Virus record (IMG/VR): IMGVR_UViG_3300010153_000008
Span: 1-55,354 of that record
From: a virus
Reading direction: 5' to 3' (one strand)
Length of the DNA: 55,354 nt
Both the position numbers and the translations under genes were made by a program. This document shows, piece after piece, positions 1-55,354 of this stretch. The notes beneath the pieces are model-generated. The model saw only the letters and a program-made list of their open reading frames with translations. It was not told the origin of the DNA and searched no databases. The stretch's first letter is position 1. Each line of letters starts with the position of its first letter.

Positions 1-168
1 GCCGTTGAACTGGACATCCACATAGTCGTACCAGTTGCTTGTACCCAGCGAGGAGCGGGCCGAGATGGTCAAATACAGGTGGTCGTAGGACGACGGGATG
101 GTTGCCGAAGTCCATGACGCTGCAGCGCCTGTGAGTTCTTCGTGGTCGATAACAGTGAAAGCAGCCAT
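1..168 (-). CDS. Partial minor structural/fibre protein, N-terminal 56 codons
   Basis: The gene starts at ATG 168 and runs off the left edge after exactly 56 codons. Its residues align with the first 56 of the next gene upstream (168..683): both end this stretch with an FNG motif after an SIP/TIP...YxHL pattern, so they are paralogues. The start overlaps the upstream stop as TGATG, indicating translational coupling. It is probably a distal tail or fibre component, by position after the tail genes (inference). The 37-codon fragment at the right edge (55239..55354) looks like the C-terminal part of the same kind of protein; about 77 residues would be missing between them. Confidence 0.8.
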   Translation of the reverse strand, partial: MAAFTVIDHEELTGAAASWTSATIPSSYDHLYLTISARSSLGTSNWYDYVDVQFNG

Positions 169-18688: not shown

Positions 18689-19053
18689 TAGATGATCCCC
18701 GCCTTGTCCAAGTAGTCGGCTGCGAACTTCATCGCCTCGTTGAAGGCTCCGGCGTCTAGCGACCATGCAGGTACGCCGCCGTGGAGGTTGAGTCCAGCGG
18801 TCTGGCACCGGTCCTCGTCCAGCAAGGTTGATGCGTAGTACCGGCTGGCGAACTGGCCGTGGCCGGGGAACGTCGGGTCGCAGTTCGGACGGGTGTAGTC
18901 GTAGAACTCAACCATCGCGCCGTATGGCTTGCCGTCCGGGTCAACGCTGTCGTTGACCAGACATCCGTCGCGACCGTAGGTCTCTCCCTGTCGGACGATC
19001 TTGACGAGGAACACCTTGCCCTCGTCGTTGGTCACCTTGTGGAACTTGTTCAC
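18688..19053 (-). CDS. Hypothetical protein (121 aa) with conserved start leader
   Basis: GTG 19053 follows a well-spaced AAGGAGAGACA. The product starts NKFHKVTNDEGKVFLVKIVRQGETYGRDGCLVNDS and includes AMVEFYDYTRPNCDPTFPGHGQFASRYYASTLL and a C-terminal helix. No family recognised. The frame is open further upstream (…PTDNQQGET before the GTG), the same mini-leader type found at promoter-proximal genes, so an extended isoform from a TTG start is conceivable. Confidence 0.72.
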   Translation of the reverse strand: MNKFHKVTNDEGKVFLVKIVRQGETYGRDGCLVNDSVDPDGKPYGAMVEFYDYTRPNCDPTFPGHGQFASRYYASTLLDEDRCQTAGLNLHGGVPAWSLDAGAFNEAMKFAADYLDKAGII

Positions 19054-19076
19054 TGTCTCTCCTTGTTGGTTGTCGG
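19054..19076 (-). promoter_or_regulatory. Start-associated leader copy (GACAACCAACAAGGAGAGACA type)
   Basis: The 23 bases before GTG 19053 contain a CCGACAACC stretch and the conserved AAGGAGAGACA. Near-identical blocks precede genes at 28972 and 29137, and related ones precede 19719, 33495, 40191, 44296 and 44562. Beyond the purine core the shared ACAACCAA part is not explained by ribosome binding alone. Confidence 0.7.
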
Positions 19077-20639: not shown

Positions 20640-20879
20640 ATGGCTACCGACCCGATCACGCTGGACCGGCAAGCAGGACGCCTCGCAGCGTTTCTTCAAC
20701 CCCAGCATCGCGGTGCGCTCGCCAAGACGGTTCTCGCCACCCCACCCGGCGACGACATCGCCGAGCCGTACCGGGGATGGTTGGAAGACCCCACGACCGT
20801 TCCTGTGATCGACCTTCTCAAGCCCTCAGAGTTGACGGCAGCCGACGCCGAGTGGATTCACGACGGAACCCGCGACTAG
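20640..20879 (+). CDS. Small protein converging on MuF polyprotein (79 aa), candidate immunity
   Basis: Second gene of the plus-strand pair, three bases after the first stop. The 79 residues include TLDRQAGRLAAFLQPQHRGALAKTVLATPPGDDIAEPYRGWLEDPTTVPVIDLLKPSELTAADAEWIHDGTRD, an acidic helical protein. Its TAG (20877..20879) overlaps the TAG of the convergent MuF gene (20876..20878 on the other strand) in a CTAG tetranucleotide, so transcripts of the two units are antisense at their ends. Function unknown. Confidence 0.65.
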   Translation: MATDPITLDRQAGRLAAFLQPQHRGALAKTVLATPPGDDIAEPYRGWLEDPTTVPVIDLLKPSELTAADAEWIHDGTRD

Positions 20880-23800: not shown

Positions 23801-26566
23801 GGTGTAGCCGCCCTTCGCTAACTCTGCTTCGATATATGGACGGTGAACGCCCTCAACACGCGACTCAATCCACTTGCCGTCCACGGTGTTGCGGGCCATT
23901 GTGTCGATCTCTGGCACAACGTCGTAGTCGGCTTTGCGAAGAAACTTGGCGTAAGCGTCCTCGTCGTAGATTTCCAGCAAGCCATCCTTCTTGCGGAGGA
24001 TCAACTGGGGTGGATCAAAGTTCGTGTCCCACAGTTTGATGTCGTCAAAGATGTTCTCGTCCAGAATGTCGGGAAAGATCCGGCTGATACTGGAATGGGT
24101 GTCTCGCACCACCTGTTCAGGGACGTACCGGCCTGTCCTGCGGCCACGGGCTGCCGCCCGGCGTACCGCCTCTTCGGTATCGACAGTCACATAGTCGGCG
24201 ATGACGCGCTCACCGCTGCTGTTTGCCCGCGCTGACGACACCTTGCCCCGAAGTTTCTCAATGGACGAATCCCCGGTGCCGTCAAGCATCGTGTCGCGAC
24301 CCGACTGAACCGACTCGGCCATGATCTCCTTGGAAAGCATGGATGACTCTTCGTGAACGTAGGCGGCAGCCTTCGTGTTGCTTTCCTTGGAAAGCACCTT
24401 GTATTCGGGAAGGTGTCCCTTGATTTCGTCGGCGTCAACGACGACCATCGTGTCCGGGTCGAAGTCGATCAACTTTTGCCTGATCGCTGTTCCCTTCCCT
24501 GACGCTGGACCGCCACCCATGAAGTGAACGACCTGTTCGCCCGGCTCGGCAACAGGAACGTCGCCGATGATGTCGGCTGCGATGTCCCGGTGAAGTTGCC
24601 TTCGGAGTTCCCAGTATTCGCCGTCGATCTGCGTGTACGCGTCTTCGGTGCCTCCCGGTAAGCGACCCCCGAACCGGTTGTAGAGGTCGTCGTCTGTTGC
24701 CAGCCGGTACGGGTTGGGTTCTTCGGGGAACCACTCAAGGTCCGTGACACGTTTCGGATGAGGGAGGTCGTCGGCGATGTCGGCAGCGGCCCGAACCAGA
24801 CGCTTCTTCTCAATGTCGTCGATGCCTATTTGCCGGGACTTCTCGTAGTAGCCCCAAATCTTGTCTTTGACATCAAGGCTGTCTGGGGTGTGGAACTGGA
24901 TTTCGATGATTACGCCGTCTGGGCCTCGGAAGTTTGCGTTGATGCCGTTGTACGGGTTCTTGGCGTTGGGTTGACGCCAGTAGTTCTTCGGTCCCTTGGT
25001 GAGTTCGTAGCCTCGGTCACGCAGGTCACGCATCGCTGCGGCGACATCATCGTTGTACCGGGCTTCGTCTATGACCATCGTGTACCGAACAGAGTCGCTT
25101 ACCTCGTCGGCGACCTCGGTTACCGTTCGTAGCCGCTGCGGGAACGCTGCCGTTTCGTCTACGAAGTCGGTGGCGATCTTGCGGGCCAGCGACGCTTCTT
25201 CCTTGACGTTGAACTGGAGGCCGTACAGGTCCGCTCCGATGTCGGACGCGGTGCCCTGCACCTGAGCGGTGATGTTGCCCTGCGCCGCGAACGCCTTCTT
25301 GTGGATTCGGGTTGCTTCCCGCCACGCCTGCTCGCGTACCGCAGCAGGGATGTCCGGTGGTGCCATGACCTGACCGGGTAGCCCCGTGGACGGTGGAACG
25401 ATCGTGTCGTACACCACGGTCCAAGTGCAACGGCAGTTCGGGTGCGCTGGGGGCAGGTCTCGGGGTTCGACCACCCAGTTGCCGCCCCTTGGGTACGCAG
25501 CGTTGAACGATCCCCCCTCAAAGGCGACGACCTTGCCGTGAAGCGGTTCACAAATCTGGCACACCTCAAACGATGAGGTGATCCACTGACGGCCAGCACG
25601 CTGCGGGTTGAACATTCCTGCTTCGGCTGCCTGCCGGGCTGCGACCATCTTGCCTTGGTTGGAGGCTTCCATCATCTCGGTGCGGGAGATGACACGGGTT
25701 CGATGCTCGCGGAGTTTCTTGCCGTACTTGGATGCCTCACGTTCAACGGCTTCCAACGCCTGCTCGGTGGTCTTGCCTGCTGCGACCGCTTCCGCGAACA
25801 CGGTGCGGCCCCGGTTCAAGACGGCGTTGTGTTGCGGCAGCGTCAACCCGGCTACCGAAGGAGCGAGTCGTTCACCGAACTCTGCTAGGTCACCCAGCGA
25901 CGGTGCCGTCTCCAACACCTCGCCGAGCATGTTCATCATGGCTTGCCTGCCGCCCTTGCCGGTTGTGCCACCGATGATGTCTTGCAGGTTCGCTCGGGTG
26001 TCCTCAGCGATGTTGGTAATCAGCCGGGCTGATTTGTTTTCGGCCCACTGTTTCCCCGCCGGGGTTTTGGTGGAGAACCCGACAGAGAACGACGACCCCA
26101 CAGGTGGCATCAACGTCACCGTCTTCGGGGTTGCTGCCTTCTGGATCTGGTTGATGGCTGTCGGGTCTGGTTTGCGTTCCAGTTGCCCTACCAGTTCGTC
26201 CCAGAACACCGCCCCGGATTCGTCTATCTGGTTGAGTAGTTCGGTAGCCAACTCTTGGCGGGCTGGTTCCAGATACTCCAACAGGGGGCTGAGAGGCCCG
26301 TCGGCACGCGCCGGGTACAGGTCGGTTCCCAACTGGCGGGCGTTGCCGGGCAGGTACGAAACGTCGTCGGTGAGGTTGAAGTCAGCGATCACCGACGGTG
26401 GCATCGTCAACGCTTCGTTGAAGGTGCGTGCTACCCGACGTTCCCTCGGTGTGAGCGGAGCACCAATCGGTTCCAAGCCGGGCTGCCCCGGTACCCGCTT
26501 GCGGGGAACCTTGACGGTTGTCTTAGCGAACCCTGACCTTGCGCCCCGTCCGGTCGTGACGGGCAT
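20876..26566 (-). CDS. MuF-type capsid protein fused to five toxin-like domains (1896 aa)
   Basis: Follows the portal with overlapping start and stop. Residues 285-385 form a MuF core: HRTRVISRTEMMEASNQGK, VCQICEPLHGK (C336, C339), LPPAHPNCRCTW (C378, C380). Residues 460-600 resemble a RelA/SpoT-type nucleotidyltransferase fold (DSVRYTMVI, GPKNYW, NPYNGINANF, EIQFHT). Two zeta-toxin-like kinase units follow: MGGGPASGKGT (683-693), VDADE, LDGTGD (761-766); and MGGGPASGKSS (930-940), NADE, LDGTGD (1010-1015). Two ADP-ribosyltransferase-like units close the chain: LLRGDENI (1257) with HYGDGTYFFSN (1281-1291), and VLYRGF (1665) with GLFGNGTYASD (1697-1707), each ending in a strand LNRxAV. MuF proteins are packaged in capsids, so ejection of effectors into the host is inferred. 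Confidence 0.85.
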   Translation of the reverse strand: MPVTTGRGARSGFAKTTVKVPRKRVPGQPGLEPIGAPLTPRERRVARTFNEALTMPPSVIADFNLTDDVSYLPGNARQLGTDLYPARADGPLSPLLEYLEPARQELATELLNQIDESGAVFWDELVGQLERKPDPTAINQIQKAATPKTVTLMPPVGSSFSVGFSTKTPAGKQWAENKSARLITNIAEDTRANLQDIIGGTTGKGGRQAMMNMLGEVLETAPSLGDLAEFGERLAPSVAGLTLPQHNAVLNRGRTVFAEAVAAGKTTEQALEAVEREASKYGKKLREHRTRVISRTEMMEASNQGKMVAARQAAEAGMFNPQRAGRQWITSSFEVCQICEPLHGKVVAFEGGSFNAAYPRGGNWVVEPRDLPPAHPNCRCTWTVVYDTIVPPSTGLPGQVMAPPDIPAAVREQAWREATRIHKKAFAAQGNITAQVQGTASDIGADLYGLQFNVKEEASLARKIATDFVDETAAFPQRLRTVTEVADEVSDSVRYTMVIDEARYNDDVAAAMRDLRDRGYELTKGPKNYWRQPNAKNPYNGINANFRGPDGVIIEIQFHTPDSLDVKDKIWGYYEKSRQIGIDDIEKKRLVRAAADIADDLPHPKRVTDLEWFPEEPNPYRLATDDDLYNRFGGRLPGGTEDAYTQIDGEYWELRRQLHRDIAADIIGDVPVAEPGEQVVHFMGGGPASGKGTAIRQKLIDFDPDTMVVVDADEIKGHLPEYKVLSKESNTKAAAYVHEESSMLSKEIMAESVQSGRDTMLDGTGDSSIEKLRGKVSSARANSSGERVIADYVTVDTEEAVRRAAARGRRTGRYVPEQVVRDTHSSISRIFPDILDENIFDDIKLWDTNFDPPQLILRKKDGLLEIYDEDAYAKFLRKADYDVVPEIDTMARNTVDGKWIESRVEGVHRPYIEAELAKGGYTESNEVVFMGGGPASGKSSLTNTDTIVLPDRHVLVNADEAKDMIPEYVQIIDQRGDWSVNAAAYVHEESSYMGKQLMSEALDGSNNIVLDGTGDSSYAKLQKKVAEARASSTRVTAEYVTIETEEAVARSAARGARSGRRVPEQVIRDTHAGVSEVFPQAAADDLFDEIRLWDNNVAQGEKPILVYEKIAGESERIVRPDLYDDFLAKNPDFVRPVVDVEDIVDLVDPFGTSANLDQVAVAWEAQAREALEEMIDRDYYKAKRMVTDSGLATLDDARADPTRVRYRVKVDPTDPDNTIAVKAQLEDLRRARGFDDLPELVTDAELDEVLESGGLELLRGDENIQFLEELQSGDFHTGTGHYGDGTYFFSNAGETSAEAGLRTLGDGDGLDTAMDMAAAYSKGWSGDEAGGVLRAALQPDAKTVTGSDLALIEQAMGAQAKEIVEVAADLAIDDASTAAVSALRDIRGRTIDDVLPGHISGRLPSSASIETVGTSLDRLGYTGDDPFGLVALAKQTGDPIDDPAFQSIYRLVVNDKMQGAQGRFKGVKVSRADDGAIATLLGYDAVVDTLISSGDEAYSSQVLLLNRNAVVMADELLDFPEVGRVNDMIRAARVTQAESPEVLDFTLTEIRQRAAGRPPVVDPSALSETIDDLEEFARLINEGQQPVGRVVEATKPEKWFDEVANVEEVIESMPKTGDNRLSWNDPKVSNDPALREIIKTQWPDAGVQQLTVGEMEDAIAEGRTVLYRGFGANERAEVDQFVQEFIDPGDTTYVGQGLFGNGTYASDVEDIADDFATKKFGIGTGSGDWEHGTVVEMVVEADAKIALYEPLEQEMLQAAQPLNSQIEEIKKTTLSVTEAMQRYDDIDIQRGNTILGPDYMRNWPVESMKDIAGADHPWFSEPAVKEAMAELKRLGETVELLYTDVGRYAASQGVDIIEVVKPTLTGYNFSTGVTTTEVPGNYYVILNRSAVGVSVG

Positions 26567-34564: not shown

Positions 34565-34707
34565 GCAGCCTCCTGTCTACACAAACGACGCTCCTGCAAA
34601 GTGTGATCCAACGTCGCCTTCCCACAACCACAGACCACCGCAACGGGGGCTTCATACCGCCGCTCTTTGAGGTGTGCCGAACCGAACCGCATCTGGTCGA
34701 TACTCAC
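34561..34707 (-). CDS. Mini-protein (48 aa)
   Basis: GTG 34707 overlaps the preceding stop (GTGA) and TGA 34561 overlaps the next ATG. Product: SIDQMRFGSAHLKERRYEAPVAVVCGCGKATLDHTLQERRLCRQEAA. It contains VVCGCGKATLD and a second cysteine RRLC, a possible zinc knuckle. Evidence is the gapless coupling and plausible composition. Confidence 0.6.
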   Translation of the reverse strand: MSIDQMRFGSAHLKERRYEAPVAVVCGCGKATLDHTLQERRLCRQEAA

Positions 34708-35330
34708 GACCCTGATTCCCACAAGTTATCCAGACCCTTCACCATGCCTCCTTGTCGCAAGAACTCCACAGCAACCGACAGTCGAAAGTGGAACCGGTCC
34801 GGTGTGCCCGGCGGGTACCGCTCTTCCAGCAGCAGGATGGTCTGCTCAAACGGGTAGCCGTCCCATTCGGCGTCGAACAGGTCGTAGCCGTCGGGGGTGT
34901 CCACTGACGGAAGTGGCTCAGGGGATGGTTGTGGCTCGTCCTCGGGTGGTGCTGGTTGTGGCGCGACTGTGGTCGTGGGCGGGGCCGTGGTTGTGGTTGT
35001 GGGCGGCGCTGCTTGTATGGCGTCTCGGCTCTCAACCGTGTGGGTCGGCGGGTGCGGCAGCGGGAGGATCGGTGCGGCCTGCCAGACCCCGGTCATGCCG
35101 AGTCGGCATTGGTGCCGCCAGTTCGTGTACGCACTTGGCCGTTCACCCCACCACGGGTCGTCAAACCGCAGCATGTCACCAGACTGGTAGTCGATGAACC
35201 AGACCTGCTCATCAACCGGGCGGGTGTCCTCCGGGTCGCACGGTGCGTAAACCATGTCGTGTTCGGCCCCCGCCGAGGTCGTCGGCAACCCGGCGAAGAT
35301 GACAGCGGCGATGGCTATGACTCTCAGCAC
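34704..35330 (-). CDS. Secreted protein with Pro/Thr linker (about 208 aa)
   Basis: GTG 35330 (alternative TTG 35336) overlaps the region of the upstream stop. A signal peptide is evident (LRVIAIAAVIFAGLPTTSAGAEHD). A cysteine-containing domain follows (YAPCDPEDTRPVDEQVWFIDYQSGDMLRFDDPWWGERPSAYTNWRHQCRLG), then a linker rich in PPTTT/APQPAPPEDEPQPSPEP, then a 50-residue helical end (YPFEQTILLLEERYPPGTPDRFHFRLSVAVEFLRQGG). Export of an early-region phage protein suggests a cell-surface role such as superinfection control (inference). Confidence 0.7.
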   Translation of the reverse strand: MLRVIAIAAVIFAGLPTTSAGAEHDMVYAPCDPEDTRPVDEQVWFIDYQSGDMLRFDDPWWGERPSAYTNWRHQCRLGMTGVWQAAPILPLPHPPTHTVESRDAIQAAPPTTTTTAPPTTTVAPQPAPPEDEPQPSPEPLPSVDTPDGYDLFDAEWDGYPFEQTILLLEERYPPGTPDRFHFRLSVAVEFLRQGGMVKGLDNLWESGS

Positions 35331-35500
35331 CGGCAATCACCAACCGTTCCGCTGCACACAGGACAGACACCCGTGCGGGTGTTGACGAGATGGTCGCCAT
35401 AGTCGGTGAAGTCCAGCCCAGAACAGAGTTCAAGGTGTCGCTTCCGCAGATACTCGGCTTCGGTCATCGTTGAGGCTTGAGCCTCAGTAGTGTCTGTCAT
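35324..35500 (-). CDS. Small zinc-binding protein (58 aa)
   Basis: ATG 35500 follows GGAGAAGGA and overlaps the upstream stop. Product: TDTTEAQASTMTEAEYLRKRHLELCSGLDFTDYGDHLVNTRTGVCPVCSGTVGDCRC. The final VCPVCSGTVGDCRC offers four cysteines; with the C in ELCSGLDF it could form a zinc site. Confidence 0.65.
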   Translation of the reverse strand: MTDTTEAQASTMTEAEYLRKRHLELCSGLDFTDYGDHLVNTRTGVCPVCSGTVGDCRC

Positions 35501-44295: not shown

Positions 44296-44514
44296 ATGGA
44301 AACCCAGCGATACCGGTTCAGGTTCGCCGGACGGACCCGTGTGATAACGGCCCCGAACAAACTTGACGCATACAACCAAGCGAACGCATGGGTACAAAAC
44401 ACGCCCACAAACCCGCCCTTCTATGCGTGGCAGGAGACGAAGACCTACAACTTCGACGGCAGCCCAGACCACACCGTGACCGAGTTCTACGGAATGACGG
44501 GAGTGTGGGACTGA
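44296..44514 (+). CDS. Early operon gene 1, small protein (72 aa; 82 aa from GTG 44266)
   Basis: ATG 44296 follows CAAGGAGAGACA. Product: ETQRYRFRFAGRTRVITAPNKLDAYNQANAWVQNTPTNPPFYAWQETKTYNFDGSPDHTVTEFYGMTGVWD. It has the layout of a small alpha/beta protein with an early YxFxFxGxTRxIxApxxxxAYxQA helix. No family recognised. First gene of the rightward operon under the strongest regulated-looking promoter of the window. Confidence 0.74.
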   Translation: METQRYRFRFAGRTRVITAPNKLDAYNQANAWVQNTPTNPPFYAWQETKTYNFDGSPDHTVTEFYGMTGVWD

Positions 44515-44540
44515 TCGTGGACGAGCAAGTAACGACCGAA

Positions 44541-44561
44541 ACCAACCACCAAGGAGAGACA
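44541..44561 (+). repeat. Second copy of 21-base leader repeat
   Basis: Identical over 21 bases to 44275..44295. It precedes GTG 44562 and is in frame with GTG 44517, just after the stop of gene 1. It could read as DEQVTTETNHQGET upstream of the main start. Confidence 0.75.
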
Positions 44562-44840
44562 GTGGGAACCACCGAATACACCGTCGTCAACCACATGGAG
44601 CAGGACTACTGCCTCCACAAAGTCGGCTGCCGCGACATCACACGAGCCGAACGACAAGGACTCGTCAACCAGACCTACAACATCACCGTCACCGACGGCG
44701 ATGATCTTGTCCGGGCCGTTGACCTTGACCTGTTCGCCTGTGGGATCTCTTCTGACCACGGCATGACCCCGGAAGAATACGCCGATGCCGGAAACAGTTT
44801 CGGCGCTCGGGTCTTCCCATGCACCAAGGAGGTCAAGTAA
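44562..44840 (+). CDS. Early operon gene 2 (92 aa; 107 aa from GTG 44517)
   Basis: GTG 44562 follows AAGGAGAGACA. Product: GTTEYTVVNHMEQDYCLHKVGCRDITRAERQGLVNQTYNITVTDGDDLVRAVDLDLFACGISSDHGMTPEEYADAGNSFGARVFPCTKEVK. Three cysteines (DYCLHKVGCRD, FPC) and a C-terminal ending at a conserved FPC are seen in actinophage hypothetical proteins with YxLHKxGCxD. The upstream in-frame GTG 44517 would add 15 residues that include TETNHQGET. Confidence 0.72.
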   Translation: MGTTEYTVVNHMEQDYCLHKVGCRDITRAERQGLVNQTYNITVTDGDDLVRAVDLDLFACGISSDHGMTPEEYADAGNSFGARVFPCTKEVK

Positions 44841-45271
44841 TGGCCGATTCTGTCTACCTAGTTGTCACCCCCGGCGGTGACGCGTTCCTCGCGGAAACCA
44901 CCGACAACACCTACGCGGACCTCTCCACTCTGGTGGACGGCATGATCGAATGTGTCGCCCTCCCCGGACAGGTAGACGCATGGGTCAACGAAGAGGGCCT
45001 GTACCGCGACGACCTTGAATACAACTTGCTCGGCACCTACATGGTCCGCGGCTGGACCGGGAACCCCGGTTACCACCTAGTCGGCCCGGTCGTGTTCGCA
45101 GCACACGATGACGAAGGCAACACGCTGCCCTGCCCGGCAGGGTTCATCGCCGACACCGTGCAAAAGGGTGTGGAGTTGACCCCACGGTTCCAGTCCGACA
45201 ACGCGCTCCTGCTCGTCCACACGATCGAAGAGATCAAGGCCCGCATGGACGCTGCGAAGGAAACGGCATGA
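44840..45271 (+). CDS. Early operon gene 3, DUF3846-like (143 aa)
   Basis: ATG 44840 overlaps the upstream stop (TAATG) after AAGGAGG. The core LSTLVDGMIECVALPGQVDAWVNEEGLYRDDLEYNLLGTYMVRGWTGNPGYHLVGPVVFAAHDDEGNTLP follows the DUF3846 pattern (VxGxIExVxLxxxxxxxxNEEGxxxxxxxNxxAxxl...ivGxvvf). Function of that family is unknown; it is frequent in actinophage early genes. Confidence 0.78.
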   Translation: MADSVYLVVTPGGDAFLAETTDNTYADLSTLVDGMIECVALPGQVDAWVNEEGLYRDDLEYNLLGTYMVRGWTGNPGYHLVGPVVFAAHDDEGNTLPCPAGFIADTVQKGVELTPRFQSDNALLLVHTIEEIKARMDAAKETA

Positions 45272-45702
45272 GCGACTACTTCGTACCTGACGGAACGACG
45301 TACATGGCTCCGACAAGCCGGGCGCTGTACCACGCGACATGGCCGACCCACCTCGGGTCGATCATGCAGAAGGGTCTCCAACCCGGCAGCGACGGCTGCG
45401 TCTACTTGGCGGGACCGAAGCCCGCTCACGCCGCGACGTTCATCGCCATCAGGGGGGGCGAGTTCGACGGGTACACCGAAGTAGAGGTCGATGGCAAAAC
45501 GGCGACCATCCCAAACTTCGTCCAGCATGACCACATCTACGTCATCGAAATCCCGGTCGATGAACTGGACCCGACGAAACTCGGCGAGTCTGGCGACCAC
45601 AGCCCGGCAGCGTTTCCCGCCGACACCGAGTCGTACACCTACGACGGAGAGATCCCGTACAACTTCGACTGGAACGTCTACCAGTTGGACATGCCAAAGT
45701 AG
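45268..45702 (+). CDS. Early operon gene 4, ADP-ribosyltransferase/KptA-like (144 aa)
   Basis: Start overlaps the upstream stop (ATGA). The core ALYHATWPTHLGSIMQKGLQPGSDGCVYLAGPKPAHAATFIAIRGG has the LYHxTxxxxxxxIxxxGLxPxxxxxVYLxxxxxxA arrangement of ART-fold proteins such as RNA 2'-phosphotransferases (KptA/Tpt1) and PARP-like toxins; the later strand HIYVIEIPVDELDP also fits. The first His-like position (H in LYHA) and Y in VYL are candidates for the NAD site. It could modify a host protein or repair RNA early in infection. Confidence 0.62.
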   Translation: MSDYFVPDGTTYMAPTSRALYHATWPTHLGSIMQKGLQPGSDGCVYLAGPKPAHAATFIAIRGGEFDGYTEVEVDGKTATIPNFVQHDHIYVIEIPVDELDPTKLGESGDHSPAAFPADTESYTYDGEIPYNFDWNVYQLDMPK

Positions 45703-45732
45703 GAGACTAGACACATGACAGAAGGAGACACG

Positions 45733-45930
45733 ATGGGGCACCTAGAGCACCGAGCAATCTGCTACGACGACGAGGGTTCGTTGGTGTGCGTCTGCGAACT
45801 CCGCGAGGGATTGGATCACCGGCAGGCCGAACTCCTGAGCCGGGCCGAAGCCGACCGGCTCGTCAACGACTATGCGGTCGAATCGACCGCTTGGGTACTG
45901 AACACGATCAACGACATGGTGAAACGATGA
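45733..45930 (+). CDS. Early operon gene 5 (65 aa; 71 aa from ATG 45715)
   Basis: ATG 45733 follows AGAAGGAGACACG; ATG 45715 in the same frame would add MTEGDT, again a Glu-Gly/Thr mini-leader that carries the ribosome site. Product: GHLEHRAICYDDEGSLVCVCELREGLDHRQAELLSRAEADRLVNDYAVESTAWVLNTINDMVKR. Three cysteines in CYDDEGSLVCVC. No family recognised. Confidence 0.68.
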   Translation: MGHLEHRAICYDDEGSLVCVCELREGLDHRQAELLSRAEADRLVNDYAVESTAWVLNTINDMVKR

Positions 45931-46256
45931 GCGCCCTCAACGGGCAGATGCCCCACACCTACGACCACCAGCCCGGCGACGGTTGGTCCTACTCGGTCCT
46001 GATCTCTGAACTCCCCCACTACGGTTTCATGGGAGGCGGCAGCCCCGACGATTTCGTAGTGGTCACCGTCTGGCGACCGTTTGACCGGGGCGTTGGCCGC
46101 ACCTACGTCATGCGGAAGCACGGGACGCTGACCGACAGGTACGTCCAAGAGAAGTTCTGCGACGGTCTCAACGACCGGGACATGATTCGCAACATCGCCG
46201 ACGCGATCCGGCAGACGCTAGGCCGACCGCCGCTGGACGACGAAAACTGGCTGTGA
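45927..46256 (+). CDS. Early operon gene 6 (109 aa)
   Basis: ATG 45927 overlaps the upstream stop (ATGA). Product: SALNGQMPHTYDHQPGDGWSYSVLISELPHYGFMGGGSPDDFVVVTVWRPFDRGVGRTYVMRKHGTLTDRYVQEKFCDGLNDRDMIRNIADAIRQTLGRPPLDDENWL. It appears to be a small alpha/beta protein. No family recognised. The following 142 bases hold a second promoter. Confidence 0.7.
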   Translation: MSALNGQMPHTYDHQPGDGWSYSVLISELPHYGFMGGGSPDDFVVVTVWRPFDRGVGRTYVMRKHGTLTDRYVQEKFCDGLNDRDMIRNIADAIRQTLGRPPLDDENWL

Positions 46257-46313
46257 TCTGGGAGCCTCGTCAGGATTTCTTTGGGATTTCTTGAAGGCTT
46301 CTAAATACCCCCT

Positions 46314-46329
46314 CTGACCTGCGGTTATG
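46314..46329 (+). repeat. 16-bp repeat shared with the 20.3-kb control region
   Basis: CTGACCTGCGGTTATG occurs here and at 20285..20300, each time upstream of a rightward leaderless start and followed later by GGGCTACATG. It is a candidate regulator binding site common to both plus-strand units. Confidence 0.62.
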
Positions 46330-46363
46330 TGGGGGTCATTACCTACCCTTGGGCTACATGACG

Positions 46364-46392
46364 TTGCATGGCGCTACACGGGGGACTACGAT
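46364..46392 (+). promoter_or_regulatory. Promoter TTGCAT-17-TACGAT, leaderless type
   Basis: TTGCAT (46364..46369), 17 bases containing GGCGCTACACGGGG, TACGAT (46387..46392), then TAGTTC and GTG 46399. Same downstream TAGTTCGTGA as at 29423 and the same spacer core as at 40.24 kb. Confidence 0.82.
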
Positions 46393-46398
46393 TAGTTC

Positions 46399-46674
46399 GT
46401 GAGTGAGCAGCGGGTTCATCAGGTTCGGGAGTGGGTCGCCGAGGCCCGGTACGTCCACCAGTGGGAGCGGGAGCGGTACGGCTGGTACCGGGTCAACGTC
46501 GTCTTCACTTGGAGGCGGGCCAAGAAGGTCGTCAGAGAAGCGGCCCAAGACGCCGCCGTCGCTTGGTTTGCCCACCACCAGCGGGTCGCCGCCGCGAGGG
46601 CCGAAGCCGCTGCTGAGTCGTTCCACGCCGTTGAGGAAAGTCTCCGGTTGTGGGGCGCGACGGTGGGTGTCTGA
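46399..46674 (+). CDS. Early operon gene 7, helical protein from leaderless GTG (91 aa)
   Basis: GTG 46399 has no ribosome site and lies six bases after a -10 box. Product: SEQRVHQVREWVAEARYVHQWERERYGWYRVNVVFTWRRAKKVVREAAQDAAVAWFAHHQRVAAARAEAAAESFHAVEESLRLWGATVGV. It is an Arg/Ala/Glu-rich helical protein with aromatic residues, possibly membrane- or DNA-associated. No family recognised. Confidence 0.72.
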   Translation: MSEQRVHQVREWVAEARYVHQWERERYGWYRVNVVFTWRRAKKVVREAAQDAAVAWFAHHQRVAAARAEAAAESFHAVEESLRLWGATVGV

Positions 46675-46856
46675 TGAGCGCCCGGTTCGTCGTCGCCGCC
46701 GCCTTCCTCGTGGCTGCCGTGTTCGCCGGTAGTCAACTCGGCTGCGCGGTCGCCAGTCATCAGGCTGCCCGGTACAGCCAGTTGGCTCACGCAGCATTGG
46801 TCGTTGAGAGTTCGCAAAGCGCCGCGGTGACCGCGGCAGAAGGAGAGAGCAAGTGA
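46674..46856 (+). CDS. Early operon gene 8, small membrane or lipoprotein (60 aa)
   Basis: ATG 46674 overlaps the upstream stop (TGATG). The first 30 residues, SARFVVAAAFLVAAVFAGSQLGCAVASHQ, are either a transmembrane segment or a lipoprotein signal with QLGC as lipobox. The remainder is a short helical tail SHQAARYSQLAHAALVVESSQSAAVTAAEGESK. Small early-expressed surface lipoproteins block superinfection in several phages (known for T5 Llp); that role is a guess here. Confidence 0.66.
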   Translation: MSARFVVAAAFLVAAVFAGSQLGCAVASHQAARYSQLAHAALVVESSQSAAVTAAEGESK

Positions 46857-46999
46857 AAACCCAAAGCAAGAATGTGACTGCCCTTGAAGCGGAGAACGCC
46901 GAGTTGTGGGACTTCGTGGAGGCTGTGGCAAAAGCGAACGTGGCTGGCTTCGCCTCCACGCAGGCTCAGGAAATGGTGCGGAATCGGGAGGTCAAGTGA
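46853..46999 (+). CDS. Early operon gene 9, mini-protein (48 aa)
   Basis: GTG 46853 overlaps the upstream stop (GTGA) after GAAGGAGAGAGCAA. Product: KTQSKNVTALEAENAELWDFVEAVAKANVAGFASTQAQEMVRNREVK, a single amphipathic helix/coiled coil. The TGA 46997..46999 overlaps the next ATG. Too short for most gene callers; coupling and ribosome site support it. Confidence 0.65.
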   Translation: MKTQSKNVTALEAENAELWDFVEAVAKANVAGFASTQAQEMVRNREVK

Positions 47000-47247
47000 T
47001 GACCGAGTTTGTACCGACCAAGGCCCAGTGTCAGTACGTCAGCAACGCTGGCGACGACGACCGGGCGAGCGGCGGGAACACCAACTACGGCTTGTACGAG
47101 GGCAACCTCTACGCGCTTGGCAAGTACGGCTACCTCGCCGGGGCGGTGTGGGGCACCGACCGGGGTTCGTTCCTCGTAGCGATCAACGCCGCCGAGGAAG
47201 AGATGGCCTACCTGATGGCCGAAGCCAAAGCAGAGTTCGGCTTCTAA
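46999..47247 (+). CDS. Early operon gene 10 (82 aa)
   Basis: ATG 46999 overlaps the upstream stop (TGATG) after GGGAGGTCA. Product: TEFVPTKAQCQYVSNAGDDDRASGGNTNYGLYEGNLYALGKYGYLAGAVWGTDRGSFLVAINAAEEEMAYLMAEAKAEFGF. The Tyr/Gly-rich middle and helical end are not assigned to a family. It ends 13 bases before the terminator at 47261. Confidence 0.7.
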   Translation: MTEFVPTKAQCQYVSNAGDDDRASGGNTNYGLYEGNLYALGKYGYLAGAVWGTDRGSFLVAINAAEEEMAYLMAEAKAEFGF

Positions 47248-47514: not shown

Positions 47515-47750
47515 ACATCGGAGTCGCCACGGCCCCGATGCCACGCCTGATGCGCTGCGATCTGTTCACCGTGCATATCCAACTTGAGATCCATCATCAC
47601 CGTGCGCCGGTCGATTGAATCCAGAACCCGGCGGTTTGATTCGTGCGCTGCATCATTTGATGCCCGCATCCGATGAGCAAGCATTGACAACGAGCCACCG
47701 ATCGTCGCCGTCGCGACAGCACCGATAGCGGTCACGACCTCAGCGGTCAC
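47511..47750 (-). CDS. Small membrane-anchored coiled-coil protein (79 aa)
   Basis: GTG 47750 overlaps the nuclease stop (GTGA). The start TAEVVTAIGAVATATIGGSLSMLAHRM is a likely transmembrane segment; the rest (ASNDAAHESNRRVLDSIDRRTVMMDLKLDMHGEQIAAHQAWH) is an amphipathic helix. This topology resembles small holin-like or spanin-accessory proteins of actinophages. It is some 5 kb downstream of the endolysin, so a lysis role is only possible. Confidence 0.66.
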   Translation of the reverse strand: MTAEVVTAIGAVATATIGGSLSMLAHRMRASNDAAHESNRRVLDSIDRRTVMMDLKLDMHGEQIAAHQAWHRGRGDSDV

Positions 47751-48115
47751 CGCTTCCCACCGTCATACGGAGTCGCATGACCAAGGCTGACCATCTCATC
47801 ATTCAGGCACTCGCCGTCTGCGTTGAGAATACGACCGAGGATGCGCCCGTACTTACCCTTGTCATCAAGGCTGGTCTGGATGATGACCCGATTTTCCAGC
47901 CCGCTGATCCAGTCTTCGACATACCGCTTCGCAGCGAGGCCCGCCTGCTTCTCTACGGCGTCTCTGGTCCTTGACTCTGGGGCGTTCACCCCGTGGAACC
48001 GAACCCGGCCCTTCATCTGGATGTCGAAACCAAGATCCAGAGTTACGTCGATGGTGTCGCCATCCACGACACGATCTACTGCTGCTCGGTAATGAAACAG
48101 GTTGCTGCTACTCAC
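47747..48115 (-). CDS. Staphylococcal nuclease-like (SNase) protein (122 aa)
   Basis: GTG 48115 follows GGAGGTCAAAGC. The product has VDRVVDGDTIDVTLDLGFDIQMKGRVRFHGVNAPESRTRDAVEKQAGLAAKRYVEDWI and DDKGKYGRILGRIL, the thermonuclease fold with DGDT, RxxGxxAPE and KYGRxLG. The catalytic Asp/Arg/Glu set looks complete (D in DGDTID, R in VRFHG, E in NAPES, R in YGRILG). The frame stays open upstream of 48115 (…SIAADPPVYTQRLTGGQS), so a longer form is not excluded. No signal peptide; it may cut host or intracellular DNA. Confidence 0.85.
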   Translation of the reverse strand: MSSSNLFHYRAAVDRVVDGDTIDVTLDLGFDIQMKGRVRFHGVNAPESRTRDAVEKQAGLAAKRYVEDWISGLENRVIIQTSLDDKGKYGRILGRILNADGECLNDEMVSLGHATPYDGGKR

Positions 48116-48237
48116 GCTTTGACCTCCGGTTAGTCGTTGAGTGTAGACGGGTGGATCAGCCGCGATGGACTTCTCCAACGCGACACGGGCCTGACTGGAT
48201 TGGTAGCGCAGGTTACGCCACGACCCACGGAGACCGA

Positions 48238-51200
48238 TTATTCGACCTCTTCGATGGTGAGTCGGTACCACCCGGCATTTGCGTTGTTGTAGACGGAGGC
48301 ACGCACCACATAGTCGCCCGCAGCCTGATTCGTGCGTTCGATGCGGCTGTCCCACTGATCGCTCACGTTGTCGATCACCGGGACGCCATCAGAGCAAGCG
48401 CCCCCGGTGTCGCAGTAGGTGATCGTCGGGGTTTCGTCCACATCCACGGCGGTACTCGGCGGGCTGATGCAAGCCGAGTTTGGTGAGCAGTCTCGCCCAC
48501 CGTCATCGTCTAGTTCGATGAGGGTGCCAACCGTGATCTGGCTTTGGTCTGCCGAATGGTCTCCCTCGTCAGAGTCCGTGTCGTAGTTCAGATAGATGTA
48601 CGGGTCGGCAGCCTCGTTGTTCGTATTGAACTGGGCACGGGTCAGGTTTGTTTCAGCGTCGATACGGATGCTCGTGGGTTCGTCCAGAGTGAACTGGATG
48701 TAGTCATAGTTGGTGCGGCTAGTAGACGAGACGATGCACCAGTCGCCCATGCCCCTCCAACCACCCTCAGCGCAGCCTTCCTCAGTACCTACGGTTGCTG
48801 TCGTCGTGGACGCTTCCGTGTAGGGGTCTCCGACCGTGACCGTTGTCGCTTCGGGACTCCAACCGCGCACCGTTGAGCAACCCGCCTGTACCCCGTCAGA
48901 GAACGTGCAGGTCGTCATGTCCGACCCGGTGCGCCCCACGGCAGTCGTCGTGTCAACGAACGTATTGGTGACCGTCGTGGCAGTCGTGGTGTCCAGATGC
49001 CAGTGCCCGTCGTTGCTGTTGTGGGTCAGGATTCCTGACTCGCTGGTCGTGGTCGCGGTTCCGGTCTGGGCGGTAACGGTGTTCGTGGAGATCGTCTCAG
49101 ACAAGGGAGTGTCCGAGTAGGTGTAGGTAATCGTCGGGACATGGACCGGTGCCACATACACCTCCACTATTCCTTGCTCAACTACGAAGTCGGGCAGCAC
49201 CTCACCCGCGACATCGGCGTCAACGTCCCCTGCTTCTACGGCCACGACAACCGCGGCCCACCCGGTGAACCCCACCGGGACTACGCCCCAGTCGTCGTAG
49301 TAGGTCGGATCGTTCGCTGCGTCGTAGTCGTCCCATGTGCCGAAACCAGCAGGTGGATCTTCACAGGCTGATGTGCCCCTGCACTCAGCGAACCGATCCC
49401 ATGATGGAACGGTCGTGGTTGGCGGCGGTGGCAGGGTCGTCGGCGGCGGCGGCACCGTGGTTGTGGGAGGCGGCACCGTGGTCGTCGGAGGCGGCTCGGT
49501 CGTTGTCGGCGGCGGGGCGGTAGTTGTGGGAGCGGGCGGCTCGGTTGTCGTAGGCGGTGGAGCAGCCGTGGTGGTCGGCGGCGCAACTGTAGTTGTCGGT
49601 GGTGGGGTCGTCGTCGTCGGTGGGGCCTGTGTCGTAGTCGGTGGGGGAAGAGTCGTCGGAGGGGCAACGGTCGTCGTCGGTGGCGGGAGGGTTGTCGGAG
49701 GGGCAGCCGTCGTTGTCGGCGGCGGGAGAGTCGTCGGAGGCGACGGCTCATCTATCACCTCAGGCTGAAGGTCTGGTTCCCAAGCGGCAACCACCACCCG
49801 GTCGTCTGCCTGTTCTTCGATGAACACCTCAGTCCAACCCTGAGGCTCCTCGTCCCACCACTCCTCCTCCTCAACAACGGCGAACGTCTCCACCACGGCT
49901 TCGGCCTGTTCCTCAAACCACTCGTCGTCGTAGTCAACCTCGTCCCACTGTTCGTCTTCCCAGTAGTCGTCTTCGACTATGAGCATTTCGGCGAGATCAG
50001 GGGCGTCGTCAAACTCGGCGGGAGGTTCCCACTCGTTACGTTCTTCGATCTCTTCGACATACGACTCGCCTAGCACTTCTTCCACGCGGTCTTCGGCTAC
50101 CGCTTGAAAGTATTCGGCGTCCGACGCAACCCACGCTTCGACCTCTTCTTCCTGCTGGTCGATCACTCCGGTGTCTTCATCGAAGGTGAGTTCCAACACG
50201 ACAGGTGCTTCCGGCACCGGAGGTGTGGTGGGTTCCGGCGCTGCCGGGTCGGTGGGCACCGTCGGGGCCGGGGCGTCCACTTGGTAGGCGGTCATGTCTA
50301 CTTCGACTGCCGCTAACTCCACTCCAGCGTTGTCGGCTATGGCGATGGACAGCACCGAAGGCTGTTCAACCACAACCGGTTCGTCTGGGGTTGGTTCCCC
50401 GGCTGGCGGCTCAACGGGGGGAGCCGCGACGAACTGGACGGCGACCTGTTGGCCCTGCTCTATCTCTATCTCAATCTCAAGGGCGTCCACCGCAATCGCG
50501 ACAGTTGCTTCTTCGATGTCGGCAACCGCGACGGCTTCCTCGGAGAACTGAATCAGCGACGTTGATTCACGCTCCGGTTCCGGTTCGCCCGGTACCACCG
50601 GTTCAGGTTCAGGCTCCGGTTCGGTGGGAACTTCCGCTTCGATCTGGACAGATCGCTCGTCGTCAAGGATGAGAAGCGAGAACGCCTGCGTGGTATCTTC
50701 GTCGGGTTCCTGCTCCAGCGGGGCTTCGGTACTTGAGGGGCTACTTGGGCGGCTTGGTTCGACCTCCGCTGGCGCGGGAACGTCAATAACGTCAACGTCG
50801 GCGGTGAAGTCTTCAACACCCGGCGGTAGGAACACCAGCACCGGATCAGCGGTGCTTGGCCCTGAGATCAGGTACCGGTACGTCGCCCCTTCGATCTCGT
50901 TGACGAACGTCCCGTCGTAGTAGCCGAGCCGGTCACCGTCCTCGGTTTCGACCTGAATGGACATCTGCTTGTCGCCTGATGCGGCGACGGTGAGCATCGT
51001 TCCGGCTTCCTTGTCTTCGGTAGGGCAGAACCCGCATGTGAATGGTCCTGACCGTGAGGTCATCGGGGTCAACTCCATCGTTCCTGCGCCACCACCCCAC
51101 GCCTCAGACGCTTCGGTCGGGTTGGTTGCTGCTAGGGCGTAGGCCCAACCGTTCTCGTCTACGTCGATCCACCGATCCGAGGTCGGCCAGTTGGAGTCGT

Positions 51201-51984
51201 AGATGTAGATGCGCCACCGGTCGCCGTCAGTGGTGACCTTGTATGGGGTGACCGCGTGGCCTCCGTGCTCCGAGTAGATGCCGACGGTGTAGCCAACAGT
51301 TGGTTCCCCGGCTTCGGCTGCTGCGAAGTCTTCGTACAGGATGCGAGCCAGCGCCAGCGGGGACAGTTCAAGGAACACTGACGCCTGCTCCTGTACCTCG
51401 GTGGCGAACTGGGTGACGTACCAGTAGGCGATCTCCGACAGGAGCGCCGGGTCGGTCTTGACCAGAGCGGCAACCTCTTCGACGTTCTGGAACGACGACA
51501 GGGTGGCTGGGTCGTTGGCGAGTCGTAGCGACAGGACGGTGAGACCTTCACACAGGCCACCGCGCATCGACCGGTTGGCCTGCTGGATCAACTGGAGGAT
51601 CACCGGGTACGGCGTACATTCGTTGTCCACCACGCTGGAACAGACCTGCGTGTCGCCGTAGAAGCGGCGGGCCATGTTGACGGTCAGTTCGGCGGGTGCT
51701 TCGCCGCCTCCGAAGTTCTCAAATGAGAAGCCGTCCCGGTCTGGGGTGTACCGCAGCGACGCCCCCACCGCTGTGGCTTCCGGGGTCGGCTCGGCAACCG
51801 TCGGCGTAGTCGAAAGCGGGGTGTCCGCGGGCACCGCTGGGACGCTGGTTGTTGAAGTGCCCTGAGCCGGTTCTGGAGCGGTCGTAGTAGCCGCCTGAGG
51901 GGTCTCAGCAGGGGTAGCGGCTTTCCCCCCGCAGGAGGCTGCCAGAAGCGCCGTAAGGACGGCTAGCCATAGACGCCGGGTCAA
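48238..51984 (-). CDS. Giant surface lipoprotein with cysteine-protease-like and Pro/Thr-rich regions (1248 aa)
   Basis: TRRLWLAVLTALLAASCGG is a lipoprotein signal with C18 in the lipobox. Residues 78-290 form a globular domain with GGLCEG (C145), GGHAVTPY (H243) and YIYDSNWPTSDRW (D263/N265), a Cys-His-Asn order as in papain-like peptidases (inference). Residues 400-740 are acidic (many Glu/Asp, Pro, Val). Residues about 745-860 are PPTTT-type repeats, a wall-spanning linker. The C-terminal 390 residues contain Thr-rich strands and end DSRIERTNQAAGDYVVRASVYNNANAGWYRLTIEE, like a pre-peptidase C-terminal (PPC) domain. It overlaps the upstream membrane-protein gene and is unusually large for a phage-encoded lipoprotein. 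Confidence 0.82.
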   Translation of the reverse strand: MTRRLWLAVLTALLAASCGGKAATPAETPQAATTTAPEPAQGTSTTSVPAVPADTPLSTTPTVAEPTPEATAVGASLRYTPDRDGFSFENFGGGEAPAELTVNMARRFYGDTQVCSSVVDNECTPYPVILQLIQQANRSMRGGLCEGLTVLSLRLANDPATLSSFQNVEEVAALVKTDPALLSEIAYWYVTQFATEVQEQASVFLELSPLALARILYEDFAAAEAGEPTVGYTVGIYSEHGGHAVTPYKVTTDGDRWRIYIYDSNWPTSDRWIDVDENGWAYALAATNPTEASEAWGGGAGTMELTPMTSRSGPFTCGFCPTEDKEAGTMLTVAASGDKQMSIQVETEDGDRLGYYDGTFVNEIEGATYRYLISGPSTADPVLVFLPPGVEDFTADVDVIDVPAPAEVEPSRPSSPSSTEAPLEQEPDEDTTQAFSLLILDDERSVQIEAEVPTEPEPEPEPVVPGEPEPERESTSLIQFSEEAVAVADIEEATVAIAVDALEIEIEIEQGQQVAVQFVAAPPVEPPAGEPTPDEPVVVEQPSVLSIAIADNAGVELAAVEVDMTAYQVDAPAPTVPTDPAAPEPTTPPVPEAPVVLELTFDEDTGVIDQQEEEVEAWVASDAEYFQAVAEDRVEEVLGESYVEEIEERNEWEPPAEFDDAPDLAEMLIVEDDYWEDEQWDEVDYDDEWFEEQAEAVVETFAVVEEEEWWDEEPQGWTEVFIEEQADDRVVVAAWEPDLQPEVIDEPSPPTTLPPPTTTAAPPTTLPPPTTTVAPPTTLPPPTTTQAPPTTTTPPPTTTVAPPTTTAAPPPTTTEPPAPTTTAPPPTTTEPPPTTTVPPPTTTVPPPPTTLPPPPTTTVPSWDRFAECRGTSACEDPPAGFGTWDDYDAANDPTYYDDWGVVPVGFTGWAAVVVAVEAGDVDADVAGEVLPDFVVEQGIVEVYVAPVHVPTITYTYSDTPLSETISTNTVTAQTGTATTTSESGILTHNSNDGHWHLDTTTATTVTNTFVDTTTAVGRTGSDMTTCTFSDGVQAGCSTVRGWSPEATTVTVGDPYTEASTTTATVGTEEGCAEGGWRGMGDWCIVSSTSRTNYDYIQFTLDEPTSIRIDAETNLTRAQFNTNNEAADPYIYLNYDTDSDEGDHSADQSQITVGTLIELDDDGGRDCSPNSACISPPSTAVDVDETPTITYCDTGGACSDGVPVIDNVSDQWDSRIERTNQAAGDYVVRASVYNNANAGWYRLTIEEVE
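49404..49748 (-). repeat. Low-complexity PPTTT-coding repeats
   Basis: This stretch of the lipoprotein gene is built from short in-frame units encoding PPTTT(V/L/T)(A/P)PP. It gives an apparent Gly/Val-rich open frame on the other strand that is not a gene. Such tracts vary readily in length by slippage. Confidence 0.85.
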
Positions 51985-52421
51985 CGACGGCGACGGGATT
52001 GGTACCAGAACAAGAAGCCGACCACCACGACCAGAACCGCAGCGACGACGACGACGGTCATGGACCCGCCGGGTGCTCCACTCATGTCGATGGAGAAGTT
52101 CTTGGTGCCCCCGCCGAGCAGATCGCCTTCGGCTTTCATATCGGCGACGGCTTCTTCAAGTTGCGCGACTTGGAACTCCAGTTGGGCTTTGGAGTCAGAG
52201 TGGTCGCTGAGGAATCCGAACGCACCTCCGAAGGTCGCAGGCAACCCGACGATGTACGCGATGTTGTCCTTGATCTTGTCGATCAGGCTGCTGGCGTGTT
52301 CAACGCGGGCCGTGATCCCCGGAGGGGGAGGCGGTGGAAGCGGCGCAGAAGATGTTGCGAAGTGCTCTTCGATGGTTCGCTGGATGCTCCGCAGGGCTTC
52401 CGTTGTTTGATCGTTGTCCAT
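51981..52421 (-). CDS. Membrane protein of the lysis region (146 aa)
   Basis: Product: DNDQTTEALRSIQRTIEEHFATSSAPLPPPPPPGITARVEHASSLIDKIKDNIAYIVGLPATFGGAFGFLSD, then a coiled coil (SKAQLEFQVAQLEEAVADMKAEGD) and a C-terminal transmembrane segment SMTVVVVAAVLVVVVGFLFWYQSRRRR with a basic stop-transfer tail. A second, weaker hydrophobic stretch lies at residues 55-72. It could be a holin partner or spanin-like protein; the adjacent downstream gene is the giant lipoprotein. Confidence 0.74.
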   Translation of the reverse strand: MDNDQTTEALRSIQRTIEEHFATSSAPLPPPPPPGITARVEHASSLIDKIKDNIAYIVGLPATFGGAFGFLSDHSDSKAQLEFQVAQLEEAVADMKAEGDLLGGGTKNFSIDMSGAPGGSMTVVVVAAVLVVVVGFLFWYQSRRRR

Positions 52422-52478: not shown

Positions 52479-52736
52479 TTAGTCTTCTGGCAACTCTGCC
52501 GGGTCTGCTGAGGTCTTGACTAGCGAACCGCTAGCATCCCCAAACGGAAGGATGCTCGCAGCATACGACTTGAGAATCGACAGCGCAGCCGGAGCCGCGG
52601 AAACCGCGATCATTTTCATCGTGGACAGGTCAAGGTCAGCCATCCCAGACGCCGCTATCAGCCCGGCGGCACACTGAAAATACGTGGACAACGCCCTCTC
52701 ACAAACGTCGAAAAGTTGGGAGCGGTCTAGTTTCAT
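52479..52736 (-). CDS. Holin, r1t-like (85 aa)
   Basis: The sequence ERALSTYFQCAAGLIAASGMADLDLSTMKMIAVSAAPAALSILKSYAASILPFGDASGSLVKTSAD matches the r1t-type holin pattern (ERAvxTFxQxAxxxl...x(I/L)xxxxxAxxAAxxSxLKxxAAxxxG...SLv) with two short hydrophobic helices. It lies just downstream of the wall-binding protein and endolysin, with overlapping start and stop. It would time lysis by permeabilising the inner membrane. Confidence 0.8.
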   Translation of the reverse strand: MKLDRSQLFDVCERALSTYFQCAAGLIAASGMADLDLSTMKMIAVSAAPAALSILKSYAASILPFGDASGSLVKTSADPAELPED

Positions 52737-53103: not shown

Positions 53104-53844
53104 CTAACTGGTGAACAGGGCGTCGAACGTCTTGACATCAACGACGCCTGTGGCGGTCAACCCTTCCTTCTTCTGGAAAGACCGAACGCCTGTTTGTGTC
53201 TTCCTACCGTAGATCCCGTCGGCAGCGCCGACACGGATGCCCTTGTTGCCAAGCAACGTCTGGACAGTCTTGACTGCTGCGCCCCGCGACCCGCGCTTCA
53301 ACGGTGTTGAAATCACCGTCTGGCGTTGCGCGTGGATTGCCGCGGCGATTCCCTTCCAGTCCATCTTGTGCTTGGGTGCGTCGTGGCGTTCGTAGGGTTC
53401 GCCGGTCAGGGCCGGAGCCGGGAACCAGTCGGTGGACTTGCGTGGCTGGTGATGCCACCATTCGCTAGCCACCGTTGGTCGGCATCCGAACTCTGTGGCG
53501 ATCTTGTTGATGTCAGGCTTCGGGAGTTTCTTGTCCAACTGTTGGAGATCAACGGCGTAGCACCAGCCGTCCAACTGCTGTTGATGCCAACTTCCCCGCC
53601 AGATCCCGAGGCCATCCAAAGCCTTCTCACCAAACCGACGGTCAGGGTTGGCCGCAAGTATCTTGGACCGACCCGACTTGTACCGGTCATAGAAATACTT
53701 CTGGTCGGCGTAGGACCGGCACCCCGACGACACAGCCACCCGACCCTCAATACGGGAATCAGAGAAGAACGCCTCAAGGCGCTGAACAAACTTCGGGTGC
53801 AACAAATCCACCCGAACGGTGCTCTTCGTGGTTGGAATGTCCAT
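53104..53844 (-). CDS. Endolysin: M15 (VanY-type) peptidase with peptidoglycan-binding domain (246 aa)
   Basis: The M15 fold is evident from VSSGCRSYADQKYFYDRY, SWHQQQLDGWCYAVDL (H87, D99) and SEWWHHQ (E128, H131), the zinc and catalytic positions of D-Ala-D-Ala type peptidases. Residues 185-244 (PLKRGSRGAAVKTVQTLLGNKGIRVGAADGIYGRKTQTGVRSFQKKEGLTATGVVD) are a C-terminal peptidoglycan-binding module. It cuts peptide stems of the host wall. No signal peptide, so it needs the holin encoded downstream. Confidence 0.93.
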   Translation of the reverse strand: MDIPTTKSTVRVDLLHPKFVQRLEAFFSDSRIEGRVAVSSGCRSYADQKYFYDRYKSGRSKILAANPDRRFGEKALDGLGIWRGSWHQQQLDGWCYAVDLQQLDKKLPKPDINKIATEFGCRPTVASEWWHHQPRKSTDWFPAPALTGEPYERHDAPKHKMDWKGIAAAIHAQRQTVISTPLKRGSRGAAVKTVQTLLGNKGIRVGAADGIYGRKTQTGVRSFQKKEGLTATGVVDVKTFDALFTS

Positions 53845-55238: not shown

Positions 55239-55354
55239 CTATGCTCCTGTTACTCCGTAGAGGGTGAACGATGAATACTGCATCAGGTCGCCGTTTTGCG
55301 GGTCGATAGTGATTGAGGTGATCGCAGCGGTGCTAGACCACAACCCCGCCCCTA
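55239..55354 (-). CDS. Partial minor structural/fibre protein, C-terminal 37 residues
   Basis: The frame enters from the right edge and ends with GAGLWSSTAAITSITIDPQNGDLMQYSSFTLYGVTGA. This aligns with the last 36 residues of the 168..683 product (GLWDDTAAVHTILIDQ...FTLYG). It may be the missing end of the gene cut at base 1, or another paralogue. Joining base 55354 directly to base 1 does not keep the frame, so some bases are missing if it is the same gene. Confidence 0.75.
   Translation of the reverse strand, partial: GAGLWSSTAAITSITIDPQNGDLMQYSSFTLYGVTGA

Follow-up and report, generated by a model that had tools for sequence, protein, structure and literature searches.

A two-gene cassette of environmental actinobacterial phages encoding a giant predicted surface lipoprotein with a cysteine-enzyme-like domain

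Why should a phage carry, next to its holin gene, a gene for a protein of more than a thousand residues that appears to be destined for the surface of its host? We examined this question in a stretch of viral DNA of 55,354 nucleotides (IMG/VR virus record IMGVR_UViG_3300010153_000008), the whole of which is referred to below as the window. The original prediction described a lipoprotein with a Cys-His-Asn domain and proposed that it might be a lysogenic-conversion-like moron, an adhesion or superinfection factor, or a virion-associated protease.

Locus and gene pair

The predicted open reading frame of 1248 codons was present on the minus strand, with TTG as its start codon. It lies, as described, between a holin gene and a gene for an SNase-like nuclease, but a small gene directly upstream, to which its start codon is coupled, had been overlooked. 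We designated the large protein LIPO and the product of the upstream gene TMp. Features of the region are listed below (positions in the window; basis in parentheses).

53104–53844, minus strand: endolysin, VanY-like plus PG-binding domain (family matches)
52479–52736, minus strand: holin-like gene, 5' of the TMp-LIPO cassette (phrog_443)
51981–52421, minus strand: TMp, 146-aa partner protein with two transmembrane (TM) segments (stop overlaps the LIPO start by 4 nt)
48238–51984, minus strand: LIPO, giant predicted surface lipoprotein, 1248 aa (homologues)
47747–48355, minus strand: SNase-like nuclease, 3' of LIPO, true start uncertain (family matches)

Of 75 loci, 74 have the TMp gene directly upstream of LIPO; the remaining one is a truncated sequence that starts inside the LIPO gene. 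TMp usually measures 128–160 aa and has a basic C-terminus in addition to its two hydrophobic segments. The commonest spacings between the two genes are a 4-nt overlap (38 loci) and a 4-nt gap (17 loci). When TMp was used as the query in a reciprocal search, a LIPO start followed in 27 of 30 loci by pattern match; of the other three, two end at a contig edge and the third (L260) is from the L011 contig, where LIPO is present. Judged by gene order, LIPO is one half of an obligate two-gene cassette, which is new here. The TMp proteins of three loci (L016, L043 and L076) begin with a short zinc-ribbon-like motif, CPHCGHDL, suggesting a cytoplasmic N-terminus.

The position of the cassette is mobile. 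At least 21 loci have it about 60–230 bp behind a holin gene, and it forms one block with endolysin and holin in the window, L002–L006 and L011; elsewhere it is found behind a tail-tip gene or, in L007, L009, L010 and L070–L072, behind a head-protease gene (holin and tail-tip neighbors were called by tblastn to window genes, and 19 loci without a detected neighbor were left unclassified). The enzyme domain of L007 is 92–93% identical to that of the window, yet its cassette is located in the head block, indicating that the cassette moved as a unit. This occurrence of the same cassette at several genome positions agrees with the moron-like behavior that had been predicted. The SNase-like gene is present 3' of LIPO in about 20 loci. 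A search for sigma-70-type promoters alone found none at the cassette, terminators were at chance level, and PADLOC gave no match. Separately, a 355-bp segment with a small ORF is shared by the window (18702–19056) and L007 (3809–4162) at 97.5% identity, in opposite orientation relative to LIPO.

Proximity to the holin gene raises the possibility of an envelope-release (lysis) factor, in which TMp and LIPO would loosen or break an outer surface layer of the host after holin and endolysin, as a spanin-like third step, with the LIPO enzyme cutting a surface protein. Like spanins (Rz/Rz1) and LysZ-type proteins, the cassette combines a membrane protein and a lipoprotein in adjoining or overlapping genes, often beside a holin gene, and the possible coiled coil of TMp further recalls i-/o-spanin pairs (PMC6139136). 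A spanin-like step for Gram-positive-type hosts is only now being proposed, with LysZ suggested as a cell-wall-disrupting lysis protein of Corynebacterium phages (PMC13056207). Matches of TMp to Rz-like families also point in this direction, but they are weak (best E 0.047, range 0.047–0.55), and in place of the single N-terminal TM segment and spanin family match of an i-spanin, TMp has a second, C-terminal TM segment with a basic tail. LIPO relatives, at 985–1733 residues, are far above spanin size and carry an enzyme domain, the hosts are of Gram-positive type, and the head-block cassettes lie away from any detected holin, while others are behind tail-tip genes. A two-component spanin presupposes a diderm host with an outer membrane; WhiB points here to actinobacteria. 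Because of the head-block copies and the size of the protein, a strict lysis cassette is disfavored, and we regard a lysis role as a possible but secondary explanation.

Distribution, hosts and lifestyle

One scan of environmental viral contigs detected 74 related loci, 62–100% identical over residues 78–336, and a profile scan of viral contigs detected 89 loci. A scan with a degenerate GGHAVTPY motif added a divergent viral group (56–58% identical), the remaining matches being due to chance. Each of the 17 carrying contigs had exactly one LIPO copy. No LIPO relative was found in the GenBank phage collection (about 50,000 records) by full-protein search, and a TMp search of GenBank phages gave no match. 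The cassette is widespread in environmental viruses and absent from culture-collection phages.

Among contigs of cellular genomes, the single match was L076, on a 3.3-kb contig (JASLZV010000272.1) in a Phycisphaerae MAG. Since the TMp gene is also on this contig, it is probably a mis-binned phage fragment; no relatives turned up in 198 further genomes of the phylum. Recent capture of a host gene was considered and rejected, as close relatives occurred only on this contig among the bacterial genomes scanned.

WhiB genes were present in 12 of the 17 carrying contigs (the WhiB query matched only the actinobacterial control), and the portal and capsid proteins of the window were closest, among named phages, to those of Arthrobacter and Microbacterium phages. 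These findings support the actinobacterial host implied by the original prediction and resolve it to that level. We further describe the phages as marine, a label that, as we understand it, follows from the IMG/VR origin of the contigs.

A lysogenic-conversion moron benefiting the lysogen, one of the roles first proposed, would suit a self-contained two-gene cassette of variable position. However, no tyrosine or serine integrase or recombinase was detected in the 17 carrying contigs, which disfavors this role, and close relatives were found in one scanned bacterial genome only, on the short, apparently mis-binned contig. We consider lysogenic conversion very unlikely. The window-type major capsid protein was present in 6 of the 17 contigs and not in the other 11, some of which are 80–114 kb long (although contigs may be fragments). 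Variable sites and occurrence with and without this capsid type are what one would expect of an accessory element rather than of a part of the assembly machinery.

At the two ends of the window (1–168 and 55239–55354), ORFs run off the sequence and look like the halves of a single split paralogue of the gene located at 168–683. The record therefore probably represents an almost complete genome, circularly permuted and missing a short piece. The 93-kb L002 contig repeats this region at 100% identity.

Domain organization of LIPO

The following features were assigned within LIPO (positions in the window; basis in parentheses).

51931–51984, minus strand: lipoprotein (type II) signal peptide, with the lipobox Cys as residue 18 (N-termini of relatives)
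51016–51753, minus strand: cysteine-enzyme-like domain, residues 78–323 (conservation, alignments, dN/dS)
51550–51552, minus strand: C145, putative nucleophile, in GLCEG (68 distinct sequences and the Rhodococcus homologue)
51256–51258, minus strand: H243, in GGHAVTPY (same basis)
51190–51192, minus strand: N265, in YDSN (same basis)
50782–51009, minus strand: conserved segment rich in beta strands, next to the enzyme on its C-terminal side, residues 326–401 (conservation, low-confidence model strands, dN/dS)
49801–50736, minus strand: polyacidic, length-variable region, residues 417–728 (composition)
49399–49740, minus strand: Pro/Thr repeat stalk, residues 749–862 (composition)
48241–48732, minus strand: distal tip, PPC-like beta domain, residues 1085–1248 (sub-threshold PPC matches, in relatives only)

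Full-length LIPO had no significant match in Pfam, PHROG, NCBIfam, PADLOC or PDB sequences; a Rad26-like Pfam match (E 0.19) was dismissed as noise. The lipobox at C18 was found where predicted, and all complete N-termini of relatives have a basic start, a hydrophobic core and a lipobox Cys, as expected of Sec/SPII lipoproteins. This signal supports LIPO as a surface lipoprotein, with export and display predicted from it. It also bears on the proposal of a virion-associated protease or tail protein, with which those cassettes that adjoin tail or head genes would be compatible: every complete copy carries the type II export signal and no virion protein family (PHROG) was matched, leaving this proposal with very little credibility.

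The most conserved part of the protein is the cysteine-enzyme-like domain. C145, H243 and N265 occur in papain-like order at the positions originally given and, together with the surrounding motifs GLCEG, GGHA, TPY and YDSN, are invariant in 68 distinct sequences. Estimates of dN/dS (Nei-Gojobori) were 0.03–0.10 for the enzyme domain among pairs with unsaturated dS, one pair having no amino-acid change at all, compared with 0.12–0.26 for the acidic middle and 0.12–0.34 for the tip. The enzyme domain is therefore under strong purifying selection, whereas the stalk and tip are variable; the low enzyme-region values, together with the numbers of related loci in the two scans, show that the LIPO reading frame is not a chance ORF.

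A distant cellular homologue, which the original prediction had suggested seeking in actinobacteria, was found in a secreted hypothetical protein (WP_307846829.1) of Rhodococcus plasmids NZ_CP133330.1 and NZ_CP092103.1. It matches the whole length of the enzyme domain (tblastn 24% identity, E 7e-5; hhalign 98.5% over 231 columns; 24–29% identity overall) and keeps the Cys, His and Asn, the motifs LYGD..VC..V...C, TQF and C..C, and four flanking cysteines. In contrast to LIPO, it is about 500–566 aa long, lacks the acidic stalk and the tip, shows, in the codons upstream of its annotated start, signs of a type I signal peptide lacking a lipobox, and has no TMp at its locus. No viral relatives were found with the Rhodococcus protein as the query. 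Two haloarchaeal plasmid matches (H3 and H4) were discarded; H4 overlaps a restriction methylase, with an hhalign probability of 9.6%.

The predicted peptidase fold fared less well than the order of its residues. Two AlphaFold2 runs, based on a shallow alignment composed of viral relatives only, all at least 56% identical, gave mean pLDDT values of 54 and 63 (pTM 0.64 at best), with low confidence around the Cys. In these low-confidence models, the Cys is at a helix start and the His and Asn lie around consecutive strands, an arrangement that papain-like enzymes also show. A Foldseek search of the PDB gave no significant match for the models; weak matches among noise included CHAP endolysin domains, PaToxP and Treponema TDE_0362, which we take to be a papain-like protease. 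The sole match below E 0.001 in a viral fold library was meaningless (TM-score 0.19). LIPO thus resembles clan CA peptidases in its Cys-His-Asn order, with spacings of 98 residues (C–H) and 22 residues (H–N), and in the modeled placement of these residues, but differs in having no significant sequence or fold match, and sequence searches found no catalogued peptidase family. We conclude that the domain is likely a cysteine enzyme and designate it a putative peptidase, its papain-like fold being plausible but unproven.

Composition along the protein confirmed the acidic tract and the Pro/Thr stalk. In the LIPO of the window, the enzyme region is followed by a polyacidic stretch (about residues 417–728; Asp plus Glu up to 42% per 104 residues), a pure Pro/Thr stalk, a Thr-rich part and the PPC-like end. 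The latter is present as predicted, but its PPC label (PF04151) is below the Pfam cut-off: the window tip has no match, and two relatives have sub-threshold matches. Among 35 distinct complete proteins, all fall in the length range given above except one 809-aa outlier that ends early; apart from this outlier, the net charge of the middle region, where Lys and Arg are scarce, lies between about −80 and −388. Identities of tip and enzyme are discordant in specific example pairs, which are not independent and are given without a statistical test: the window and L005 share 94% identity in the enzyme and 59% in the tip, whereas the window and L052/L056 share 75% and 83%, respectively. As read from these alignments, the tip recombines independently of the enzyme domain.

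Such a long stalk with a variable tip, together with the hints of a PPC-like fold, is compatible with an adhesin or aggregation factor that would stick infected cells or debris to particles or to other cells. However, the most conserved part of LIPO is the enzyme rather than the tip, and no adhesin family was matched, which makes this role improbable. Of the two halves of the predicted adhesion or superinfection factor, it is superinfection exclusion that we retain as the best guess.

A possible role on the infected host cell

We tentatively favor, as the best of the explanations considered, the view that LIPO acts late, at the host surface, to prevent superinfection or re-adsorption. TMp and LIPO would be co-translated from a cassette among the late genes of marine actinobacterial phages, and LIPO would then be exported and, once it has acquired a lipid at C18, stay anchored on the outer side of the cytoplasmic membrane. 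The combination of export signal, lipid anchor, long charged stalk and variable tip suggests display on the infected cell: the polyanionic, Pro/Thr-rich stalk would carry the tip through the wall and leave the conserved enzyme domain near the membrane. Strong selection on the enzyme suggests a constant target, and mosaicism of the tip suggests a variable binding partner; in this model, the presumed enzyme would cleave or cross-link an envelope protein while the tip binds its partner. By altering or masking the surface, LIPO might keep related phages from adsorbing or injecting, and the same masking might spare the phage's own progeny from adsorbing to, or injecting into, infected cells or debris.

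Phage-encoded lipoproteins with roles in superinfection exclusion include Ltp of a temperate phage (PMC3952083) and Llp of lytic phage T5 (PMC9586334). Ltp, from Streptococcus phage TP-J34, is a 142-aa protein encoded in a lysogeny module, with a repeat domain and no enzyme domain, and is unlike LIPO: no Ltp-type domain was detected in LIPO by Pfam, and the absence of integrases in the 17 contigs does not fit carriage in a lysogeny module. T5 Llp, likewise a lipoprotein, comes from a lytic phage and blocks the receptor, acting against both superinfection and adsorption to debris (PMC9586334); it is described as small and lacks an enzyme domain. LIPO showed no homology to either protein. The small size and lack of enzyme domains of known exclusion lipoproteins argue against an exclusion role. 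Many exclusion proteins are made early, and the location of the cassette among late genes, often next to the holin, is a further argument against it.

A broader formulation, to which we give about the same limited weight as to the lysis role, is that the two proteins remodel or break the surface of the infected actinobacterium by putative proteolysis, either as a receptor-destroying enzyme or as a spanin-like third lysis step. We know of no described counterpart with the TMp-LIPO architecture for either. The cassette, conserved at one copy per contig and encoding a protein mostly of 1.0–1.7 thousand residues, is shared by actinophages whether or not they have the capsid type of the window, and is absent from the GenBank phage records searched, suggesting a widespread way to change the actinobacterial surface. 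TMp-LIPO offers a clean gene pair with which to ask if a surface lipoprotein that bears an enzyme keeps competitors out or assists lysis in Gram-positive-type hosts.

The protein encoded at 34704 had been cited as a similar, smaller secreted protein. This 210-aa product (34704–35336) resembles LIPO only in its signal peptide and its Pro/Thr linker, having no lipobox and no family match, and its support for a surface program is weak. Elsewhere in the window, a 1896-aa protein (20876–26566) contains Zeta-toxin/AAA kinase-like domains in addition to a Mu-F-like head domain, and an apparent cluster of small plus-strand genes occurs at 44388–47247 in a genome otherwise encoded on the minus strand.
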